NCBI GenBank assembly: GCA_014607495.2
Contig: CP053148.1
Span: 1,612,001-1,676,000, forward strand
DNA from: Carposina sasakii
Taxonomy: Eukaryota > Arthropoda > Insecta > Lepidoptera > Carposinidae
Length of the DNA stretch: 64,000 nucleotides
Direction: 5' to 3'
Positions 19,121 through 50,865 of the stretch are shown in pieces (position 1 is the first letter of the stretch; every line of letters starts with the position of its first letter). The notes under the pieces were generated by a model. The model saw only the letters and a program-made list of their open reading frames with translations. It was not told the DNA's origin and did not search any database. Position numbers and translations under genes: made by a program.

Positions 19121-21766
19121 TTAATCATAAATATAAATATAGGGGTTTCCTTCCACCAGGGCAATGTCTTTCTCGAGCTGCTTGAGGTCTTGCTCCATCT
19201 TGGTCTTTTTCATAACCTTCGGGGGGGTGTCCGTAAGCATGGGGAGCTGCAGGAATGCTTTCTGCATCAGCGACCAGTTATGTTTGAGGTCCTGTAAAGA
19301 AATATCTTATTAGCTATCGGCAATAAACGTTCGATTGGAATCATTGCCGTGACCTTTAACCATTGAACAGGTGACCTAATTATTTAAGGACTACTTTACG
19401 CATAAATAGTGCACTGAAATGACAGAGGGGTAGCAATACAGTCTCAACATATTCATCATCATATTTTGCAGCGTTTAACTTAGCAAATAACAAAGGAAAC
19501 TTACATCCAGAAGTGCTTGTCTCTCCTGCTCTGAGATCAGCTTGCAGAGGCTCTCCTTGTTCTCGTCGGCTATCCGGATCCGGTCCAGCTCCTTCTGGAT
19601 CCTTCTGTTCCTCTTCACGAGGTACGCCGGCATCTGCCCAAAGTCCGGCCTGATGCAGTACTCAGGAACCTCGCCGGAGCCCTTTATCTTCTTTATATGG
19701 CCATCCCTGGTGTCTACTAGTCTACACGCGAAGGAGAAGGAAGTGAAATTGGAGATAGGACAGAATTTAGGAAGTAATTTGGTGTCTAACGCATCGTATA
19801 CTCGGCTAAAAAGTAAAAACTTCTCCTGCGCTCACGTCGCGTCCAGTGTATCTCAATAATGACCCGTATTGTTATTTGGGATGGAAAAAAACTGGGCTCG
19901 CAAAATATTATAAGCCGATCTTCATAACGAAAATCAAATAAATTCCCAAAGAATTGGAAACTACGACTCGGCATCTAACAGTGCGGTCAATAGCGACGTC
20001 CCGTGCTCGCAAATGCCGCCGCCGCCGTCGTCGCCGGCTGTGCGTAATCACTGATAGACTATCCAATAATGCTAGTGCACTATGGAGATACCTATCTAGA
20101 CACCGCACGGACGAGAAAAGGTGTGTGCAGACTTGATAATCGTCCTTCGTTACAAATGTCCTTATGTTAGTAACTTGTTGTATGCAATTATTAAGCACTT
20201 ATTTAGACAGACGGTTGCATAAAGCGAGTTCGCTAACTTTCAGGGTCAAGTTATAATATATACCCGTTATAAAGTTATACCCGGTAGCTCAGTGGTAAAA
20301 GCACTAGCACGGAATGCAGAGGTCGTGGGTTCGATTCCCACTCGGGTGAAGAATTTTTTCCATTTCTTTATTAATAAAGTTATAATTAATAAATTAACAC
20401 CTGCCTATAATTACATCTCGCTGCAGTTAGGGTGTCCACATTCAAAATACAAATATTTCCTTACTTTATTAGATTTTTGTTCATAAATTTGATTTTTCTC
20501 ATTACAACGTTCAAGAAGAACAGTAGATCGTTTTGTTGTATCGCCGAGTTTGTTTTTCATGACAGGCAACAATATAATATATTAGTTACCTATATAACTT
20601 TATGGTTAAAGATGTGTCTAAATAAATAGCTACATAGTAAATGTTGTCGTCATATCATTGTAGTAATAGTCAATCATAAAAGAAACTCGTTTAAAACGCA
20701 GCTTGGTAACAGAGTCTCATGGCGCCATAGAGCCCATAGTTAGTGATAAAGTGGAAGCCGTGGGGTTTAGGATTTGGCTCGCTAACCAACGCTGCACTAA
20801 TAAGCGCCATTTTCTCAAAGCGCCATAAAAGCTGAAATACGGTCGGAAACATTAATTACATCTTAGAGTACGTACATACCTAGGCTCAACAGGTCTTCCC
20901 TTAACTTTGATGGCTTTTTTAATGTTTACAACCCTGAAGTTAACTTTGGTCGGCTCTGGTTTCTTCGCCGGAGGTGGACGCTTCGGCACAGGAGGCAAGT
21001 TGCCAGACACATAGCATTTGTGGTCCGACTTCTTTATAGGTTGACCTATCCCTTCGCCTTTTTTGAGGAAATTTTCTGGGCTCTTCACCGGATACTCGGC
21101 GTATCCGAAGGTACGTTGTGTCTGGGGTATTTTGGTTTCACGCAACAGTTTCTCAAGTTTAGATTCGTATCTAGAGGTCAGATTATGTGTAGGTAAGGTA
21201 ACTATAGGGATAGGAACTACATGCACCTAGTACTACCTACTACACGTTACGCATCTACATCAGTAAGGTTTACAACTAGAGTCCGTTTCATAGAATAAAT
21301 TCCTATGCCTCATTTCGGAACTAACATTTTTTGTATGCAGTGACACAGAAAATGTGGCCATACACATAGTAACTACCGCCATCCTTCATCGAAACTATGA
21401 AACGGACAATTAAGGTCGCATTGATGTTTCTGGAAAGAGTATACTACTATAAAACGACGACTAACAGGGATATTCCTGTGAGCACTCTGTTACTTAGCCT
21501 GGACAGACAGCCTCATCTTGGCAATGCTCACGAGATGTAGATGCTGTTAGGTAGGTTCTGAATTTGTTGCTTTTATAACAAAACTATTACATTACAATCT
21601 ACTCTTGATGGCGGTTGTTGGTGTTATATACCTACTAAAACATGTAAATACCTTAGTTTGGCACCAATGGAACCAATTACCTGGGGGTCTTTGGTGGTTC
21701 GGGTGGAGGCTTATCAAGTATGGTATAAATTACTTCATCGTGGTGTACAATTTCAACTAATGACAT
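19121..21766 (-). CDS. Enkur: Enkurin
   Basis: Exons on the minus strand: 21681-21766 (start ATG at 21764-21766), 20880-21170, 19505-19721 and 19121-19291 (stop TAA at 19121-19123). Phases are 2, 2 and 0 and all junctions fit GT-AG. The product is 254 aa; the human protein is 256 aa. The N-terminus has a proline-rich PPPEPPKTPRYES segment. The middle has FLKKGEGIGQP and PPVPKRPPPAKKPEP, possible SH3-binding sites. The C-terminal enkurin domain (about residues 140-250) has PEYCIRPDFGQMPAYL, then ISEQERQALLDDLKHNW, then QDLKQLEKDIALVE. Enkurin is a calmodulin-binding adaptor of sperm flagella and motile cilia axonemes, first found as a TRPC-channel partner. The IQ-type calmodulin site would lie in the C-terminal part. 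Expression mainly in testis would be expected but cannot be seen here. Confidence 0.93.
20279..20375 (+). mobile_element. tRNA-like SINE head (family 2), copy 1
   Basis: It has A box GGTAGCTCAGTGGTAAAAG and B box GTGGGTTCGATTCCCAC with a perfect T-arm. The following GAAGAATTTTTTCCATT is shared with the copy at 38022, so it is a dispersed SINE rather than a functional tRNA gene. Confidence 0.75.
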
Positions 21767-22775
21767 TGTAGGTATATAGCTAGATTTTTATTAATTTCAT
21801 CTATAAAAATTGTAGGTAATCGTACAAGATGACAAATTCAAAGTAAATAAATACTTTTTTGACTATGTTTGTTGCTATGACAACGTAGGTACGGTTTCAT
21901 TTAAGCACGACGTCGTTTATAGTACCCACCCAATAGCACCTGCGACCTGCGCAGTATATTAGCGCACTCTTGTGTGCTTACCAGTTGCATTTTACAGTGA
22001 TCTAAGAATAATTTATGCAACAATCTGCATCAAGACAGTAAAATATTATTTTCACCGGCGGCTCCCCAGAATTATGCCCGCAAATTCCAGATTCCAGTGT
22101 TTCCACTCTGCAGTATATTTTATTTAATCTGTGCTAAGCATAGACATTACAGATGAATAGTGTTAAGGTTAAAAATATCGAGATTCGGCGGGAAAAGCTG
22201 GAAGGGAGCGGGTGTAATATTCTTGTGAAAATCTAAATTTATTTGTAAATGGCTTGCATGTGTCCGTAAAGTGATGTTTTTTGGTAGATAAGTAATATTT
22301 TGTTTACTTGTTATGTGAATCTAGTGCGTGTGCATGGTTTTATATGCAGGTAAGCTGAGTAAAACTTTAGTCGGAATACGATCTCTTCATGGGCTCATGT
22401 AAGTTGTTTCTGCAATTATTTTTGATTTTTACTCATTTTAAACTCGTTCTTGAGGATTTTCCCGACGTTTCCATTCATCATCATCATTATCATCCGTCAT
22501 AAATTCAGAAATCATTTACTAAAGACAATGGCTGTATGGGCTTAGTTCCCCTTGCCTTTCCTTCGGGATAAACTAAACAAAAAAAAAAATTAAAAATATC
22601 GAAAATGAATATTCAAAATCAAATGTCAAATGGTCAAATGTCCGTCGGCTAATAGCTAAAGATAGGAGTTGCGAAGATGAATTTAGTTAATTCTTGATAT
22701 TTTTAGATTGAATTTTATGATAGAAGTGCTAAGTCCGTGGAAAACAAAGGTGCTTTATTTTATTAGTTGTTCGAA
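21767..22775. other. Divergent intergenic region between enkurin and PDPR
   Basis: This 1.0-kb spacer separates two head-to-head genes and should hold both promoters. No TATA box stands out. A dispersed repeat occupies about 22215-22585, leaving about 190 bp before the PDPR start and about 450 bp before the enkurin start. Confidence 0.5.
22215..22585 (+). mobile_element. Dispersed repeat (family I), uninterrupted copy
   Basis: It contains TTTTATATGCAGGTAAGCT, TCATGGGCTCATGTAAGTTG and CGGGATAAACTAAACAAAAA. Another copy lies at 50408-50665, and an inverted copy at 44100-45025 is broken by other elements and by the DIRS retrotransposon. This copy serves as an empty site for the left side of that insertion. 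Confidence 0.75.
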
Positions 22776-37700: not shown

Positions 37701-40700
37701 TCGCACAATCAAGGAATTAAAATAAAAAAAAAAAAATCCCACCTTTTTTTTTGGCATAAACTTACTTTATTTGATGTATAGAGTACGTACCCTTCGTTAA
37801 GGGTGGCCACAAAAAAACACCCTGTATATGTCACTTACAGGCTAGCACAACATTCCTAAATTAATACAATAAATCATTTCAATACAAATAAAGAAAACAT
37901 GTTTAATAAATCAAATTATACTTAAATTAAAATACTACATCAAATAAATCAAATTAAGCTCAATCAAATAAAACTAAAGTTAAATAAACTAATGCATGGT
38001 AAAATTCGTCATCCGAGTAATTGACCCGGTGGCTTAGTGGTTATAGCGGCTGGCACGGTTTGCAGTGGTCGTGGGTTCGATTCCCACTCGGGTGAAGAAT
38101 TTTTTCCATTTTCTTTATTAATAATTTTATAAGAGATACAGATATTATAATATAATTATATTGCCAAATAGACCTATTCCTTGTAATTATAGAATCGCTA
38201 CTATAAACGGTAATGCTTAAGTTTACGTACATAATAGCTAGTTCTATTTAAATTCAATCAACCTGCTCATTTTATTACTCCAGCATCATGAACGTATAAA
38301 GAATAACGGACAGAGTGTTGTGACTACATAGAGTGAAGCATTCATAGTAAGCTCGGCAACGATATTCCATGGATTAGGGATGTGTATTGACGCTTTATCC
38401 ACCCACACATACAAACCATAGTAAGCTCGGCGCTACTGGAAAATGCGCACACATGCCCAACGCGCCGCCATTTCGGTCCTTTAAACTGTGCAGTGACAGC
38501 ATTACGTCCGTTGTTCTTTGTACGCTCATGTCCATCATCATAACAGTTGTGATCTTGCAGCAAGACATCGAATTCATCGGTCGCAAGGCGCTCATAGCCC
38601 AGAAGGCGGCCGGCGTGAAGCGTCAATACGTCCAACTGTTATTGACGGACCACGACCACGAAACGGATCTGTGGTCGTGCGGCAACGAACCTATCTACCG
38701 GGACGGTAACTACTGTGGACGGACTACTACTACTAGTTACGGGTTCACGTTTAAAAAGCAGGTCAGTTGTTTATTTGTTTATTTTGACGGCCGATTGGTG
38801 TAGTGGACACCTTTCGGTGTGTTAGGTCATATTACCCGAATGTCTACTCTGTTCATTAAGTCTATTTCCCTGAACATCCACTTCCCTAAACGTCGCCTAC
38901 ATACTATGTATTACTACCATCATAGAGGAATAAGATGTCATTAGATTGCATTACTGTACATTACAGAACATTAGTAATGTGGTATATTACAGTAACGCAA
39001 TCTAACGGTCAAGGTCTGGAACTATGAGGTACAGGAGCACGGAGAAGGACATAGACTACATTCTGTAGTTCACGCTATAAAAATTCAGTAGGTATCATCT
39101 CGTATTAAGATTATAATCTGATACTATTAACCCCATGTAGCAAAATCCAACTTGTTACTTGCTATGTCTTTAACCTACTCGTATGCTACACCGTCTTTAG
39201 AAAACCGCAGGCTGATTTTGTAACTTGCAACCGGTCGCAATCGCTGCCTGAATAGTCGCTGTCAAAATTGACATCCTTCTAGATTAAAAAGTCAGTGCAC
39301 CATACTGCTAGTAGGTAATAGGGTTTCTTGGAATCGGTCGCGTAGTCATCTTTTGACGTTTAGCGACCGGTTGCCTAAACTAAAATCTTTAGTATGAAGA
39401 TGTGGTTATAAGTACATACAGGGTGATTTTTGATCGTCAACGTTCCCGAAAACTACGGAATCTCATCATCACGATCATTTTTCTCCATGGAAGCATTCCT
39501 GGGAAGTGTCTGGTTCCCAAGATATAAGGGTCCAAAGTTGAGTAAATAGACTGCGTTTTTCTACATAAATGCACAAAGTCGCGCATAGCAAGATTTTTTC
39601 ACGAGAAATAATTAAGTACATAGGTTGAAGCACCGTAATGGCGGCGCGTTGTGTATGTGTGCGGATTTTCTGGTAGGCGCGCAGCTTACTATGGTCTGTA
39701 TGTGTGGTATGATTTGTATGTGGTATGATTTGTATGGGTGGATAACGCGTCAATACACATCCCTACTACGTTACCGAGCTTAATATGAATGCTTCACTCC
39801 GTGTAGTGACAACACTGTCCGTTATTCTTTATACGTTCATGGTTATTTGTAATCTGAAGGGTAAATTTGATGCTGTCTTTCTCTAAAACCTGATCATGAT
39901 AGAGACAGCATCAACTTTATTCTTCACATAGGTGGTGCCGATTCCACTCAAAATTTTCAAGCATTCCACTTTACCCCACGGTGGGGCGGCTTAGGGTGGC
40001 AGAGTGGAAGACTCCTTTTTTTTGGCATTAACTTACTTTATTTGATGTATAGAGTTTATTTGATGTATAGAGAGGGTGGCAACGAAAAAACATTCTGTAT
40101 ATATGTATTTGTCGCAGGTGTGCCTCGGATTTGTCCAGAATTTGGACAACGGTATCCCGCAGCCGGTCACACACGAGTACGTACTCTCGGGGCATTATGA
40201 GATAGAGATCGCTGGAATCAGGTGAGTTTATTCTTAGTTAAATATAGGTATTCTATATCCTATCTATAGACTATTTGCCCCCTCTGTTTCCAATGCCCAT
40301 GCATGGCGTCACTTGTACTTACCCATATTGTAACACCAATCTAACTTGTGGTAGTGCTATAAATGACTGAATACTGAGTTCTGAAGTCATCCTATCGTAC
40401 TTATAATATTATAAGTACGAAAGTTTGTGAGGATGGATGTATGTGTGTGAATGTTTGTTACTCTTTCACGCTAAAATTATTAAACGTATTTCGATGAAAC
40501 TTTCCAGGTATATAGCTCATATATCAGAATCACGCATAGTTACGCCGACGAAGCCGCGGGCTGTCGCTAGTATTATAAATGTGAAAGTGAATTTGTTTGG
40601 TTACTTCTTCACCCTTTAATTACTAAACCAATCTTGAAATTTTGCATACATAGTTGAGTTGAGAGAACGATGGCTTCTTGCCGGTTTGCCTTGCCACCCT

Positions 40701-44099: not shown

Positions 44100-45025
44100 C
44101 ATATTTTTTTTTTTTGTTTAGTTTATCCGGAAGGAAAGGCCATTATATAGCCATTGTCTTTAGTAAATGATTTCTGAATTAATGATGATGATGAATGGAA
44201 ACGTCGGGAAAATCCTCAAAAACAAGTGTAAAGTTCATAGGCGGCAAATAATTTTAGATTTAGGTATAAATATTGTAAATATAGGGGCATTCCAAACGAT
44301 TCTATCTTCTCCCAGTTCAAACGATGCTTTGTTTGTGTGTTTTGTAAATCTTATCTTATCTTAATATATATAAATCTCGTGTCACAATGTTTGTCCTCAA
44401 TGGACTCCTAAACCACTTAACCGATTATAATAAAATTCGCACACCATGTGCAGTTCGATCCAACTTGAGAGATAGGATAGTTTAAATCTCAAATTATAGT
44501 CGCAATTTTAATTTATTGCTAATTATTTGTCTGTTATACCTTTCGACTTGGTTGAGTAAGTAATCAATAGATGGCGCTGCTTTGGTAAACCGACAAACGT
44601 GTCATATAAGCTACAATTCAATTTCCACGCGGACGAAGTCGCGGGCGTCCACTAGTAAGTTTATAGAGAATTATGTACCTTAGATAAGTAGGTGGATTTA
44701 ATTTTTTTTTTTGTTTGTAAGGAAAGTCTATTTAGTTTAGGCTACGATGAGGCTGACATATTTGTAATAAATAAAAGCCTCTATAAAATAAAGATTAAAA
44801 AAAAAAAAAGTGTAAAGTTAGTTAAAATGAAAAATAATTGCAGAAACAACTTACATGGGCCCATGAAGAGATCGTATTCCGGCTAAAGTTTTACTCAGCT
44901 TACTTGCACACGCACGCACTAGATTCATATCACAAGTAAACAAAATATAAGTTATCTACCTAAAAACATCACTTTACGGACATGAGCAAACCATTTACAA
45001 ATAAACTTTGATTTTCACAAGAAAA
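44100..45025 (-). mobile_element. Family I repeat, interrupted copy
   Basis: The parts 44106-44227 and about 44816-45025 are reverse complements of 22440-22585 and 22220-22430. About 590 bp of foreign sequence lies between, including the Helitron-like piece at 44350-44660. The DIRS element is inserted at its outer end. Confidence 0.7.
44350..44660 (+). mobile_element. Helitron-like element
   Basis: AATATATATAAATCTCGTGT to CCACGCGGACGAAGTCGCGG then CGTCCACTAGT. It is nested in the family I repeat. Confidence 0.65.
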
Positions 45026-45074
45026 AATAGCGACGTTTTACCTGAAATTAAAACGTTTATTAAACATACTTACC

Positions 45075-45245
45075 TTATTCGAAGCCTAATAAAATATAAG
45101 AGAGTAGCGTTCACTTCCTTTTGGTGCTATTACGCACTTCCAGTCCATCCACATCCCCCAACTTCCTTCCCCTTCCCAATCATTTCTTACGACGCTAGCG
45201 CCACCAGTGGCAGCTGTGTTTTAAGCCTTGGTTTTATCCTCATTG
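45075..45245 (+). repeat. DIRS inverted terminal repeat (3' end of element)
   Basis: 171 bp from TTATTCGAAGCCTAATAAAA to GGTTTTATCCTCATTG. It is inverted relative to 50044-50214, with about two or three mismatches. An outer extension of about 50 bp (45026-45074, GCGACGTTTTACCTGAAATT ...) is unique to this end. Confidence 0.92.
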
Positions 45246-45274
45246 CGTCTCTTTGCCCCAGGCAGGGTTAAAAA

Positions 45275-45380
45275 TTATTAGGCTTCGAATAAGGTAAGTA
45301 TGTTTAATAAACGTTTTAATTTCAGGTAAAACGTCGCTATTAAACAGTACTGTACCGTTATTCGAAGCCTAATAAAATAT
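45275..45380 (+). repeat. DIRS internal complementary region (ICR)
   Basis: The part 45275-45341 is the reverse complement of the left outer end (45026-45092). The part 45339-45379 is the reverse complement of the right outer end (50196-50234). The two halves overlap by the shared ATT/AAT. The ICR thus reads as the complement of joined element ends, the hallmark of DIRS1-type elements and the template used in models for completing the circular DNA. Confidence 0.9.
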
Positions 45381-45632
45381 GAGAGACGTGTTTATTATCG
45401 CCTGGTAGCGCGTAGCAACAACGCCAATGTGATATTTTTCTATAAGATAGGTAGTATGCTCACAGAACTTAGGATTTAGACAGAGCTACAGATTACAAGT
45501 GAAATGATATTCTGGTGAAGTTTAAAATATTTATTTAAACCCAAATGACAGATCTACAAAACAAATAAAAAATTATGTTTACCTACATGTTATTATGTAA
45601 TAATTATTTTAATTAAAACATAAGTACACTAT

Positions 45633-48407
45633 CTATTCACTAATTGGTACAAACAATTTGTATAATGATTCTGAATCATAATTACTAGATATATTCTTAT
45701 GATAATATTTTCTGAATGTGTTGGATGATTTCCAATTTCCACGAGCGAGTATCTCATCTAGAGGGGCATTTTCGATCCAGCTTTTAGATGCTACAGCGGA
45801 TCTGACGCTGCCAGCAGTCGCCTGTATGCCTGCTTCTTGGAGGAATTTTCTCACCCATCCTGCTATTATTGTGCGAGATGCAGGTCGTGGATTTTCAGTC
45901 AGTGTTATAAACAAATCATCTAATGTGAGTGATCTCTTTTCCTTCGATAAATTAATAAGGTGTGTCACCCAATGTACGGGGCAAAGGTGTTTGTCTTGGG
46001 TATTCATGATTAATTTCCATAATGATTGCTGATGACTATCCGAGTCTGTTTTCGACCCAAAGACCGGTCTAAATACAACGTAATCATTACCAGCAGTATA
46101 ATGATGAGAGGAGATCTTAAGGAGCGTTAAATCATGTACCCTTCGTCCTGAACAGAGAAGGAGTATGGCAGCGGTGCACTTCGATGCTTCATACAGACTA
46201 GGTGTATTAAAATCCTTAGTAGTTAAGTAACGTCGTAATATATCAGTGTCCCAAATAGGTGGCTTTTCAGGTTTTGGGTTTGCTAACGATATAGCCTTCA
46301 GGACCTGTTTTACTAAGCTATGCGAACTTAGTTTCTCCTGTTTGTCCGGGTTAGAGAATGTGGCCACAACAGACTTATGCACTAAAATTGTACTTAAAGA
46401 GAGACCTTCCTTTTGATGCAGATCTGCCAAAAACCGAGCGAGGTCGGAGCCCGTGGGGCATAAGGTGTCTAAACCTTTCTCTTTTGTCCATGTCGACCAT
46501 CTTTTCCATGCTGGTCTATAGGTCTTTAAGGTAGATTTGCGCCAGCTTGATGACAATAGCTTTTTCTGTTCATCTGACCAATCATTTAGTTGCTGGCTCC
46601 ACCCCCACATTTCCAGGCCTCCAGTGTCATTTCCGAGACTTTCGGCGGGGGTAGCCCTGTCGTTACGTCTACTAAGACTTGATGAAGGTTCCTGATTGTG
46701 AATGGAGCGTCCAGAGCTCGACTCTTCAGGTCTGGTCTCCAGAATGCCCCCTCCCACCGCGGTACTATCAGTATGTATGTACCGCATGCTCTGTTCAGTT
46801 TCGCAAGGACTCTCGGGATCAGGTATGGGGGAGGAAATACCCATGCCAGGTTGAAATTCCATGTGAAGCTCATGGCATCGTGAAACGACGCCCGTTGATC
46901 TTTTCGGTTCAGGGTGCAATATGTCGGTATCACGTGCGCTTGGTGTGACGCAAAGAGGTCGACCGTGGGCATACCCCATTTCCTGAAAATGGTCCGTGTT
47001 ACTGATGGCAGTAAATGCCATTCCGGGGGAAGTCTCCTTCGGGATAGCCGGTCGGCATGGCAGTTGTAATTGCCTGGTACGTGATGAACTGATATGTGGA
47101 TGTCGTATTGATCCAAGAGGTAATATACACTGTTCGTGAGTTCCATCAATGCGTTCGACTTGGTACCCCCTTGATTGCGGAGATATGCTATTACCGACTT
47201 GTTGTCGCATTGAATAACCAGACCTTTCGATTTGAGCGTTACTCCCCAATATTCCAGGACATTTCGAATTGCCAGCATTTCCTTCTGGTTGCAATGCAGT
47301 TGTCGTTGTGAGCTTGTCCATGTTCCTTGGAGAGGCTGATCGTCGAGCATAGCTCCCCAACCTAGGTCGCTCGCATCTGTGGTGAGATAATGTTGTGGTG
47401 GAGGTATATGTAATTGACCGCGAACTCGACAGTTGACCAACCACCAGTTCAGCTCCTGGACTGCCTGTTCTGGTAACGCTAGTGTTTTTATTTGTGGAGA
47501 TTTCAACATCAGGTTGGACTGTGCTTGGAGGGCTCGATAATGAAGGCGTCCTCTCTTTACCACAAAGCTGGCGAAGTTCATTGTGCCTGTTACCTTCTGC
47601 AAATCTAGCAATGTAGCTCTTTTTTTGCATAAGAGGTTTGTGATAAGTGTTTCCATTTTCTTTGTCAATCTCCTTGGTAAGTATTTTAGGTTTTTCCAGG
47701 GGTCCCAGATTAAACCTAAAAATTCCAACCGTTTTTGCGGTGCCAGTATCGACTTCTCCATGTTTATTTTCCAGCCAAGGTAAGTCATGAGATTTACTGT
47801 TAGAGCAATGTGTTGGCTCAATATGGCTGGGTCTTGATTGACCAAGCAGAAGTCGTCTAGATATACTAAGACACGTACGCCGCGATCCCTTAGATACTGA
47901 ACGACCCAATTCGTTAGGCTCGCAAACGTTTTTGGCGCTGAACTTAGCCCGAAGGGCAGACATGTCATTTGCCATAAGTTGTTTGCGTAAATTAGGCGTA
48001 GATAACGTCTGTGACTCTTTGCCACTGGTAAGTGGAAATAGGCCTGGCTTAAGTCTATTTTTGCCATCCAGTCTTTGCTTTGTATGAAGTCTGGCATACG
48101 TTGGACATTTATGAGCCGAAACGTACCGGCGTGAATGTACCTGTTGAGTTTCTTCAGGTTGAAAATGGGCCTGGAAGTGCCGTCTGTTTTTGGACGTAGG
48201 AATATTGTTGACGTGAAGCTGGGTGATACCCGTGCTTTTTCTAGTACACCCTGAGATATGAGCTTCTTTATTATTTGCAACATTTCTGTCGACTGTGGCG
48301 TTTGCTGTTGAAAATTGGGTTTGAGCAGAGGCGGCTTTTGTTTGAACGGAATTCGATAACCTGTCAACATTTGAAGTATATGAGGCGGCGCCCCAAGATA
48401 CTCCCAA
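45633..48407 (-). CDS. DIRS ORF3: tyrosine recombinase (long overlap with ORF2)
   Basis: An open frame of 924 codons. The first ~600 are in a different frame over ORF2 and have no recognisable domain (rich in S, T, R, H). The C-terminal ~320 residues form a tyrosine recombinase. It has a SAM-like N-terminal part (STLKTYRPAWKRWSTWTKEK), catalytic Arg in LLCSGRRVHDL (about residue 756), a second Arg in GSVRSAVASKSW (about 869), and a likely catalytic Tyr in TFRKYYHK (901 or 902). It would carry out integration of the circular DNA by strand exchange. The real start is unknown: the open frame begins without ATG, and translation may begin further down or by re-initiation. The stop is at 45633. Confidence 0.88.
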   Translation of the reverse strand: MGVSWGAASYTSNVDRLSNSVQTKAASAQTQFSTANATVDRNVANNKEAHISGCTRKSTGITQLHVNNIPTSKNRRHFQAHFQPEETQQVHSRRYVSAHKCPTYARLHTKQRLDGKNRLKPGLFPLTSGKESQTLSTPNLRKQLMANDMSALRAKFSAKNVCEPNELGRSVSKGSRRTCLSISRRLLLGQSRPSHIEPTHCSNSKSHDLPWLENKHGEVDTGTAKTVGIFRFNLGPLEKPKILTKEIDKENGNTYHKPLMQKKSYIARFAEGNRHNELRQLCGKERTPSLSSPPSTVQPDVEISTNKNTSVTRTGSPGAELVVGQLSSSRSITYTSTTTLSHHRCERPRLGSYARRSASPRNMDKLTTTTALQPEGNAGNSKCPGILGSNAQIERSGYSMRQQVGNSISPQSRGYQVERIDGTHEQCILPLGSIRHPHISSSRTRQLQLPCRPAIPKETSPGMAFTAISNTDHFQEMGYAHGRPLCVTPSARDTDILHPEPKRSTGVVSRCHELHMEFQPGMGISSPIPDPESPCETEQSMRYIHTDSTAVGGGILETRPEESSSGRSIHNQEPSSSLSRRNDRATPAESLGNDTGGLEMWGWSQQLNDWSDEQKKLLSSSWRKSTLKTYRPAWKRWSTWTKEKGLDTLCPTGSDLARFLADLHQKEGLSLSTILVHKSVVATFSNPDKQEKLSSHSLVKQVLKAISLANPKPEKPPIWDTDILRRYLTTKDFNTPSLYEASKCTAAILLLCSGRRVHDLTLLKISSHHYTAGNDYVVFRPVFGSKTDSDSHQQSLWKLIMNTQDKHLCPVHWVTHLINLSKEKRSLTLDDLFITLTENPRPASRTIIAGWVRKFLQEAGIQATAGSVRSAVASKSWIENAPLDEILARGNWKSSNTFRKYYHKNISSNYDSESLYKLFVPISE

Positions 48408-48673
48408 CGGTGATAGTATTGACGAAGTTGCCCTGCTCGGAATGGTTGACTCGGCAAGTCAGGACCTTTTCCTAGGTTGATCTCTCCTATCCCGTCGGGA
48501 TGAGGGAGAGTTAGATCGGTATTTCGGTTTGTTTGCCGATTGACCTTGGCCATATTGGCGCTTACCTCCTCTGAGCTTTCCGAAACCGGCAGTGTTTGGA
48601 TTGGATTTATTCGGCCTTGTCTGAAAGTTGCTTTTCGTGGGCCCCTTGTTTGCCACGGGTTTTGATACGTCAT
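46586..48673 (-). CDS. DIRS ORF2: reverse transcriptase, RNase H and MT-like domain
   Basis: Counting from the upstream limit of the open frame at 48703 gives 705 codons. The first ATG is at 48671-48673. RT motifs include FLRPKTDGTSRPIFNLKKLN, KIDLSQAYFHLPV, LPFGLSSAPKTF and the active site VYLDDF (about residues 280-285). RNase H follows: TTDASDLGWG (about 441), NQKEMLAI (Glu about 475), QCDNKSVIAY (about 498) and HADRLSR (about 549). After it comes the DIRS MT-like segment with PTVDLFAS (about 579) and WVFPPPYLIPRVL. The frame overlaps the end of ORF1 by about 215 bp and the start of ORF3 by 1.8 kb. It appears intact. Confidence 0.93.
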   Translation of the reverse strand: MTYQNPWQTRGPRKATFRQGRINPIQTLPVSESSEEVSANMAKVNRQTNRNTDLTLPHPDGIGEINLGKGPDLPSQPFRAGQLRQYYHRWEYLGAPPHILQMLTGYRIPFKQKPPLLKPNFQQQTPQSTEMLQIIKKLISQGVLEKARVSPSFTSTIFLRPKTDGTSRPIFNLKKLNRYIHAGTFRLINVQRMPDFIQSKDWMAKIDLSQAYFHLPVAKSHRRYLRLIYANNLWQMTCLPFGLSSAPKTFASLTNWVVQYLRDRGVRVLVYLDDFCLVNQDPAILSQHIALTVNLMTYLGWKINMEKSILAPQKRLEFLGLIWDPWKNLKYLPRRLTKKMETLITNLLCKKRATLLDLQKVTGTMNFASFVVKRGRLHYRALQAQSNLMLKSPQIKTLALPEQAVQELNWWLVNCRVRGQLHIPPPQHYLTTDASDLGWGAMLDDQPLQGTWTSSQRQLHCNQKEMLAIRNVLEYWGVTLKSKGLVIQCDNKSVIAYLRNQGGTKSNALMELTNSVYYLLDQYDIHISVHHVPGNYNCHADRLSRRRLPPEWHLLPSVTRTIFRKWGMPTVDLFASHQAHVIPTYCTLNRKDQRASFHDAMSFTWNFNLAWVFPPPYLIPRVLAKLNRACGTYILIVPRWEGAFWRPDLKSRALDAPFTIRNLHQVLVDVTTGLPPPKVSEMTLEAWKCGGGASN

Positions 48674-49790
48674 CAGAGGGACGTTGATCGTATTGCGGCG
48701 CAATTTTGCGATCTTTTTGTAATGGCCAGAACACCTTGTTCACACCACCTGCCTTATCTATAACAGCGCTGAACTTCTCAGCGTCAAAAAGGGTTGAGCC
48801 AGAAGGCGGAATTTTACGCAGGGCACTTTTGTGAAACGGGTCCTTGACATGCACTAATAAACCTTCACGGCGACTTTGAATTAATTCGGCACGATGGCCA
48901 CAAACCAACTGTAGCACATCACTAGACGTTTTCACAAAATTGCCTTGCGTGAAAATTTCATTTATTTTAGCCTGAATATCTGTATAACTCAGAGAATCTG
49001 ATAGTTGAGCCCAGATCAAAAAGTTTTGCATTTCGGTGTGCAAAGCTTCACGCTGTTTAAGCAATGCGTGAGTTATACTTGCAAAGGATTTTTCCATATT
49101 ACATGAAAATTTTGAATTATCATAACGCTTCACCTCTTCGTTAGCATCGAGAGAGGTGAAGCCAGGTGTATGTAAGTATAATTTTTGCACGTCCGAGTAC
49201 CGAACGTCTTTCCAGTCATCTTGTTCAAAATGCTGTAACTCGATTAATTGCTTAAGCATAGTTTCAGATGTATGAGGTATAGTTGGTTCTTTAACTTTAG
49301 TTCCTACATTTAAATTGAATTTTGGTTCCATGTTAGATTCGTGTTTTTCGTGCAAAACCTCACTATTTTCCATGCCAGATATATCGTCATAAAGCTCACC
49401 ACTTGCGTCTAAATCAATTTCGTTTTCGCAGTCGTGCCTACCGGATCCACATATACCCTGAGGGGGTTTGGAGGTAACAGCATGTTCACGAAGAGAGTTC
49501 ACTGATTTAATTAAATGTTTTAACTTACGGTTGTAATGTCGAGATCCTTTCCTGCGTTTTTTCTTGCCTTTCCTATAACGCTTACGCTTATCTTCTGACC
49601 CTGAGCTTGAGCTACTTGTGGAACTTGATGATGTGTACGAGCTTGAAGAGCTCGATGAGCTAATAGACCTTTTCCGCTTTTTCCTAAGTTTAGCAGCGTT
49701 AATCAGCTCAGGGCTTCGTGCTCTTTGTTCCAGATCCTCGCGGTGTTAGTCCTCTGCTTGCTTACTGGTGGATGGACCGTGCTCACTCAT
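48459..49790 (-). CDS. DIRS ORF1: gag-like protein, with premature stop
   Basis: ATG at 49788-49790 opens MSEHGPSTSKQAED, then an in-frame TAA (49746-49748) at codon 15. The same frame then stays open to the stop at 48459. The product has a Ser-rich tract and basic clusters (RKKRKRSISSSSS, KRKRYRKGKKKRRKGSRHY), an acidic middle, and a basic C-terminus (SRRDRRDQPRKRS). No zinc knuckle was seen. It probably packages the RNA, as ORF1 of DIRS elements is thought to do. The single stop may disable this copy or be read past. Confidence 0.8.
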
Positions 49791-50043
49791 GATGTCTAAA
49801 ATAACGTAAAAATTTAAATTATTTAAGAAAAGATTTCTAATCACGAACGGCAACGCCGTTAATTTCTTAGGTTAAGTAGATAATTCTACCCTCAATTAAT
49901 TTGCGTATAACTTGTGCATTTACTTACGATTTTTAGCGAATTATTTACCACAATTTTTATAAGTAGACGCACACGCAGCACTTTGAGACGGTTTTATCCC
50001 AGGTAATGGTTGACACGACCGCCTCGGTCGGGAAACGAAACGC

Positions 50044-50214
50044 CAATGAGGATAAAACCGAGGCTTAAAACACAGCTGCCACTGGTGGCGCTAGCGTCGT
50101 AAGAAATGATTGGGAAGGCGAAGGAAGTTGGGGGATGTGGATGGACTGGAAGTGCGTAATAGCACCAAAAGGAAGTGAACGCTACTCTCTTATATTTTAT
50201 TAGGCTTCGAATAA
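50044..50214 (-). repeat. DIRS inverted terminal repeat (5' end of element)
   Basis: 171 bp, the inverse of 45075-45245. Outside it the element continues about 20 bp (CGGTACAGTACTGTTTAAT) to its end. In the coding direction it precedes ORF1 by about 250 bp and should contain the promoter. Confidence 0.92.
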
Positions 50215-50407
50215 CGGTACAGTACTGTTTAATAACACCCGCTCTGTAAAAGATAATCTGATAGAACTTATATATCATTTATGGATCAGCAGATTTTTTT
50301 CAAAATTTCGGAGTTAGTCCCATAATGAAAGTTAGTTTATCGTTTCATGTCAAAAGATAATCAGTACTTTTTGGTAGACCTTGTATACATAGGCACGGGG
50401 GGGTGGC

Positions 50408-50665
50408 TATCTAGTGCGTGTGCATGGTTTTATATGCAGGTAAGCTATGTAAAACTTTAGTCGGAATACGATCTATTCATGGGCTCATGTAAGTTGTTTC
50501 TGCAATTCTTTTTGATCTTTACTAATTTTACACATTCTTGAGGATTTTCCCGAAGTTTCCATTCATCATTATCATCTATCATAAATTCAGAAATCATTTA
50601 CTAAAGACAATGGCTGTATGGGCGTAGTTCCCCTTGCCTTTCCTTCGGGATAAACTAAGCAAAAA
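50408..50665 (+). mobile_element. Family I repeat, third copy
   Basis: The same words as 22330-22585 (GTGCGTGTGCATGGTTTTAT, CTTTCCTTCGGGATAAACTA). It ends about 200 bp before the SLC35C2 start. Confidence 0.75.
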
Positions 50666-50865
50666 TAAATTTAGTCTGTGATATTTTGCATTTTGCGGTG
50701 CAGACAAATGGAATATTGTTGCTTCTTGCTGGAATGTGAACGATTTTATTAAAATGAAACTACATACCTTAGTGAATTGTTTTTATTAATTGTTCAGAAG
50801 ACTACAGTTATTTGCTATGCAATATAGTGAATTGTTAGAGGATTTATTATCAGTCTTCATCAGCC

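Follow-up and report, generated by a model that had tools for sequence, protein, structure and literature searches.

We suggest that a young DIRS1-like retrotransposon of Carposina sasakii has its genes translated, probably, by way of one leaky UGA_C, at which termination, a +1 slip and readthrough would all take place. The element lies in a 64,000-nucleotide stretch of contig CP053148.1, which was analysed as a whole and is referred to hereafter as the window. The gag stop is invariably UGA_C across the families of this genome, the reverse transcriptase (RT) frame and the recombinase frame stand in fixed relation to it in elements with unbroken frames, and the recombinase frame downstream of it is free of stops. 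That both the slip and the readthrough occur, and both at this codon, we infer from these relations. Most ribosomes would terminate at UGA_C and yield Gag; some would slip +1 at the UGA and yield Gag-RT-RNase H-MT; and some would read through it, adding to Gag ~600 residues from a second frame running through the RT gene and then the recombinase. In the established model of the family, the tyrosine recombinase would integrate the element from a circle with a junction templated by the internal complementary region (ICR).

Anatomy and insertion of the element

The window element is an almost complete DIRS retrotransposon reading on the minus strand (Table 1). Both of its outer ends recur as reverse complements in the ICR, positions 45026-45092 matching 45275-45341 at 67/67 bases and 50192-50234 matching 45338-45380 at 43/43, and the two ICR halves share four bases (AATA), so that the element ends are joined head to tail. 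The longest chance match among 300 mononucleotide-shuffled pairs was 11 bases. This bears out the earlier note on this DNA, which had described the ICR as the reverse-complemented joined termini and had placed the ends and the ICR correctly. It had also claimed 171-bp inverted repeats differing at few bases, and we count, by eye, two substitutions in a conserved part of ~171 bp, with the 31-bp right extension lying outside it; the full alignment of the inverted terminal repeats (ITRs) is 95.6% identical over 206 columns. ITRs with the extension, as well as an ICR, were present in all nine loci examined (the window family and eight others). Split direct repeats, as in PAT and Ngaro termini, are absent from the window element, the termini of which are inverted repeats.

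Table 1. Coordinates of the element, its genes and its flanks in the window
Feature	Position	Strand	Remarks
Whole DIRS1-like element	45026..50234	-	5,209 bp; 5' end at 50234; from ITR/ICR matches and eight same-ended copies
Left (5') inverted terminal repeat	50030..50234	-	First bases TATT
Right (3') inverted terminal repeat	45057..45258	-	
Right extension (rE), ~31 bp	45026..45056	-	ICR holds the sole other copy
ICR half pairing with right end	45275..45341	-	67/67
ICR half pairing with left end	45338..45380	-	43/43; 49 bp at 98% out to 45386
gag, 443 codons, ATG at 49790 to UGA	48459..49790	-	Broken here by TAA at 49748-49746
gag stop UGA (48461-48459) and C (48458), proposed recoding site	48458..48461	-	Signal recurs in 60/62 DIRS loci
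RT-RNase H-MT-like frame, +1 to gag	46586..48460	-	Counted from the GAC overlapping UGA; stop-to-stop frame starts at 48739
gag-frame continuation, 941 open codons, UGA to recombinase stop TAG	45633..48458	-	
Tyrosine recombinase domain	45636..46610	-	R, W, Y positions conserved
Left flank: dispersed-repeat copy with inserts, DIRS inserted at its edge	44105..45025	-	
Right flank bases continuing the same dispersed repeat across the empty site	50235..50244	.	

The RT, RNase H, MT-like and recombinase regions, all previously described as open, are indeed so. RT and RNase H match Pfam above cutoff (E 5.5e-19 and 4.5e-07), the recombinase matches Phage_integrase (E 0.00053) and SAM-like (0.0028) under the curated cutoffs, and the MT-like region, conserved among relatives, has no Pfam match up to E 10. 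No Pfam match to a DDE integrase was found in the window element. The nearest solved RT structures include those of Ty3 and retroviral RTs. The gag product (48462-49745, minus strand) matches Pfam SR-25 at E 5.8e-08 and 33 bits, under the 40-bit cutoff, probably because of a serine/arginine-rich stretch. An in-frame TAA 14 codons past the gag ATG rules out a fully intact element, leaving the description "nearly intact" a fair one; the frame is open at this position in some sister copies, which makes the break private to the window copy or common to few.

Seven further genome copies of the window family have identical ends and different flanks. Aligned with the window copy over 4.8-5.2 kb, they show 17-28 mismatches, which indicates a young family. 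ATT is found at both ends in 8/8 copies, the window copy included, with flanks otherwise unrelated (by eye), and no target duplication was seen among these eight. One dispersed repeat has three copies in the window (22206-22594, 44105-45025 and 50409-50669), and the two beside the element are oppositely oriented, giving a 105-bp inverted repeat around it. This flanking inverted repeat (44804-44908 and 50435-50539) was considered as a part of the element and rejected, as both arms are dispersed repeat that also occurs at 22206-22594. When the flanks are joined, the third repeat copy (~22206-22594) aligns through the junction at 207/241 positions and runs on for ~10 bases past the site of insertion, and so reveals the empty site. 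The window also holds two tRNA-like matches to Rfam RF00005 on the plus strand, at 20278-20349 (41.5 bits) and 38023-38095 (40.7 bits), as candidate genes or SINE-borne sequences. Taken together, the ITRs, right extension, ICR, 3-4 bp junction and RT-RNase H with a tyrosine recombinase, along with the lack of an integrase match and of a target duplication in eight copies, support a DIRS1-like assignment.

The gag stop across the genome

The search of the host genome (399 Mb, 31 contigs) with the RT, which the earlier note had asked for, returned 65 RT matches representing at least 62 elements, the window element among them; three rows are second pieces, and the counts are lower bounds because 63 of 1,954 first-look candidates were scored. 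At least 21 families can be distinguished among the RT proteins, with identities of 0.39-0.77 (median 0.48) from one family to another; they are related by descent and hence partly non-independent. Clustering omitted L016 and L045, in which an indel led to another stop being picked, and proteins of <250 residues (L026 and L046). L021 was merged into the window family, with which it shares the junction, since its separate cluster is an artefact of frame. L026 was counted as a family by its distinct junction context; the total stays at 21.

Under a single rule that accepted any stop and any next base, 60 of the 62 loci have a gag that ends in TGA with C directly behind it. The remaining two (L068 and L069) are frame-broken and retain the letters TGAC at the junction; within the 60, an indel in L065 and L070 moves RT to another frame. 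RT begins in the +1 frame directly past the gag UGA. The codon preceding the UGA differs from family to family, as do the bases that follow the C, the first of these being T in 15/21 contexts. At control stops the signal is absent or rare, TGAC being found at the RT stop in 0/19 loci and at the next stop of the recombinase frame in 1/19.

The C could have been imposed by the RT protein, as the GAC overlapping the UGA encodes Asp. The RT motif F-x-[AG]-G starts 0-5 residues past this GAC, and such variable spacing indicates that TGAC does not reflect an Asp anchored at one site in RT. Further to that, Asp is encoded within RT by 247 GAC and 196 GAT codons, from which GAC in all 21 families would be unexpected (4.7e-6, with families treated as independent, which is true only in part). 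In database RT proteins, D stands just upstream of the motif in 33 of the 34 usable among the best 120 of 359 RT relatives, where ~11 would be expected; this can be taken as an indirect sign that the signal extends beyond the host genome.

Loughran 2022 (PMC9841425) reports that termination is lower at UGA_C than at UGA_U and that +1 frameshifting and readthrough both change to compensate, an effect that fits one leaky stop feeding both frames. The same work reports that UGA_CUA favoured readthrough over frameshifting; this hexamer occurs in 4/21 junction contexts (L017, L034, L036 and L047). The gag junction appears to combine a leaky stop context and a conserved stop-free in-frame extension, as readthrough would require, with a downstream gene that starts in the +1 frame at the stop, as +1 frameshifting would require. 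Neither a stimulatory structure nor a slippery P-site codon, which would also speak for frameshifting, was found (MFE, 21 loci; the P-site codon varies). No P-site codon is conserved across families, UCC before UGA being confined to the window family; UCC precedes the UGA of the antizyme +1 frameshift too. Many recoding sites carry RNA structure. Here, folding 3' of the UGA gave no MFE signal (mean z -0.26 vs -0.17 in controls, 21 loci, pseudoknots being outside the model), with L038 as the single locus of low score (z -3.46).

The frame between gag and the recombinase

In the window element the recombinase shares the frame of gag, with a single UGA in between, and this frame stays open through the whole RT gene for 941 codons. 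Across the 25 loci with an open RT (L023 and L026, in which RT is broken, were left out), synonymous shuffling of RT codons predicts ~640 recombinase-frame stops within the RT ORF, or ~25 per locus, whereas only three were observed, all of them in the decayed copy L030. In none of the 25 loci did any of 300 shuffles give a count as low. This cannot easily be reconciled with an ordinary DIRS element whose long ORF overlap says nothing about mechanism and whose TGAC and open frame arise by chance or composition: half of the 28 described elements do carry a long ORF overlap (PMC3266345), but the shuffles (0/300 in each locus) and the negative TGAC controls at other stops make this account very improbable.

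The absence of stops begins at the UGA itself. The first in-frame ATG lies 12 to 391 codons past the UGA, a distance that is not conserved, and over 20 loci these stretches total 3,391 codons with no stop at all, against ~136 expected. Internal AUG initiation would have no need of open codons in this stretch, and their presence therefore argues against it. More generally, the recombinase might come from a spliced RNA, from reinitiation or from internal or non-AUG initiation, with UGA_C being no more than a weak stop that every family has inherited. The window element does carry an in-frame ATG where its recombinase domain begins, and in the distant contig L003, described below, an ATG overlaps the gag stop; yet none of these routes needs hundreds of stop-free codons from the UGA on, and shared descent fails to explain a fixed C amid varying neighbour bases. 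We consider this account doubtful.

Upstream of the UGA the picture is different in kind. The RT frame is open there about as far as gag shuffles predict (26 loci, none below 0.05; L025, with a short gag, was left out), and an RT frame that reaches upstream to a chance length, together with a recombinase frame that is stop-free downstream, gives the impression that the UGA, or a point close by, is where both frames are entered. In 7/26 loci the overlap of the RT frame into gag is near the tail of the shuffles (0.06-0.09), which makes a slip further upstream possible there. It may be, then, that the recombinase alone uses the UGA, by readthrough, and that ribosomes reach the RT frame at another point of the gag overlap or through an initiation of its own. 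An overlap of at least 56 nt in the measurable loci leaves room for such an upstream slip, and the four UGA_CUA contexts, readthrough-favouring in PMC9841425, point the same way; the chance length of the RT frame upstream and a recognisable RT that starts 0-5 residues past the UGA speak against it, and we hold this possibility to be unlikely, if the least so of the alternatives.

The residues encoded by the overlap frame are only weakly conserved. Between families their median identity is 0.219 vs 0.195 for shuffles, with z >2 in 76/153 pairs; BLOSUM scores exceed those of shuffles in 138/153 pairs, an excess that is inflated because the shuffles contain stops scored -4. Such weak conservation suggests that the linker has been selected probably mainly for being readable. 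We read the overlap frame as chiefly a matter of stop avoidance, with some protein constraint possible. A protein search with this frame (7,991 candidates scored) gave one match, P0121, at 26% over 95%.

On balance, we are inclined to think that the DIRS elements of Lepidoptera use one UGA_C as a three-way switch between Gag, Gag-RT and Gag-recombinase, and that the recombinase/pol overlap exists because ribosomes traverse it, its ~600-residue linker being selected mainly to lack stops.

Relatives and comparison systems

DIRS elements have been known for three genes with overlapping frames since their first description. The earlier note had proposed a DIRS1 element and knew of no well-described lepidopteran family; the first part stands, as the anatomy is DIRS1-like, but such elements are already published for Lepidoptera. 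Six DIRS1-like copies in two families were published for Bombyx mori (Piednoel 2011, PMC3266345), and the RT search of databases recovered relatives across moths and butterflies, including Papilio, Plutella, Cydia, Manduca, Euphydryas, Colias and others among the best 120 of 359 matches, with a Papilio machaon relative at 72% and some relatives from wasps and psyllids in the same set. Compared by its published description (PMC3266345), BmDIRS1 resembles the window element in its lepidopteran host, ATT start, AAT junction and long ORF overlap, and in its dimensions: the ITR is given as 16+155 (conserved part 155 vs ~171 in the window element), the rE as 30 (vs ~31) and the ICR as 40-62 (vs 43-67). 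It differs in length, 4,870 bp vs 5,209 bp. The window element is itself ordinary, one more family in a known lepidopteran group, and the linkage between its genes is the new part.

Three DIRS-like contigs were found in bacterial bins of a genome-contig collection. Two of these, L001 and L002, are likely contamination. L003, from a Yoonia bin, is a complete-looking DIRS with 324-bp ITRs and is probably eukaryotic contamination. In all three, the frame -1 to RT has no stops (18.6, 8.4 and 14.7 expected), which suggests that the open overlap is old. The junctions vary: L001 has gag and recombinase in one frame but UGA_A, L002 has gag, RT and recombinase in three different frames, and L003 has gag and RT sharing a frame across UGA, with an ATG overlapping the gag stop. 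The putative UGA_C switch is so far seen only in the host-genome families. Scans of viral contigs and of a phage collection found no relatives of the window element. A weak match to a reverse transcriptase (28% over 22% of the query) was noted on the Wolbachia plasmid NZ_CP087956.1 at 1653-2111.

Several known systems share parts of the proposed arrangement. DIRS-1 of Dictyostelium discoideum has gag, overlapping RT/RH/MT and recombinase ORFs, inverted repeats and a circular junction model (PMC5633606). In Tca2 an in-frame UGA ends gag and is followed by a long open frame (PMC2194720), whereas in the window element the frame that continues past the UGA encodes the recombinase and overlaps pol, which has a frame of its own. 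Antizyme OAZ1 undergoes a +1 frameshift at UGA (PMC9841425), comparable to a gag ending in UGA with RT in +1; it differs in having UGA_U, while the window element has UGA_C, no structure signal and a second, frame-0 product as proposed here. The UCC before the UGA in the window family is a further likeness to antizyme. In the open-licence PMC literature, as far as its searchable portions go, we recognised no description of readthrough or frameshifting at a DIRS gag stop, and found no explanation of how the DIRS recombinase is translated; we claim novelty within that scope only.

Should the proposed recoding hold, the relative amounts of three proteins would be governed by a single codon, which is unusually compact for a recoding system, and coding-competent DIRS elements could be picked out by that codon. 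The recombinase is needed for integration, and a UGA_C fixed in at least 21 families makes its translation testable with reporters.
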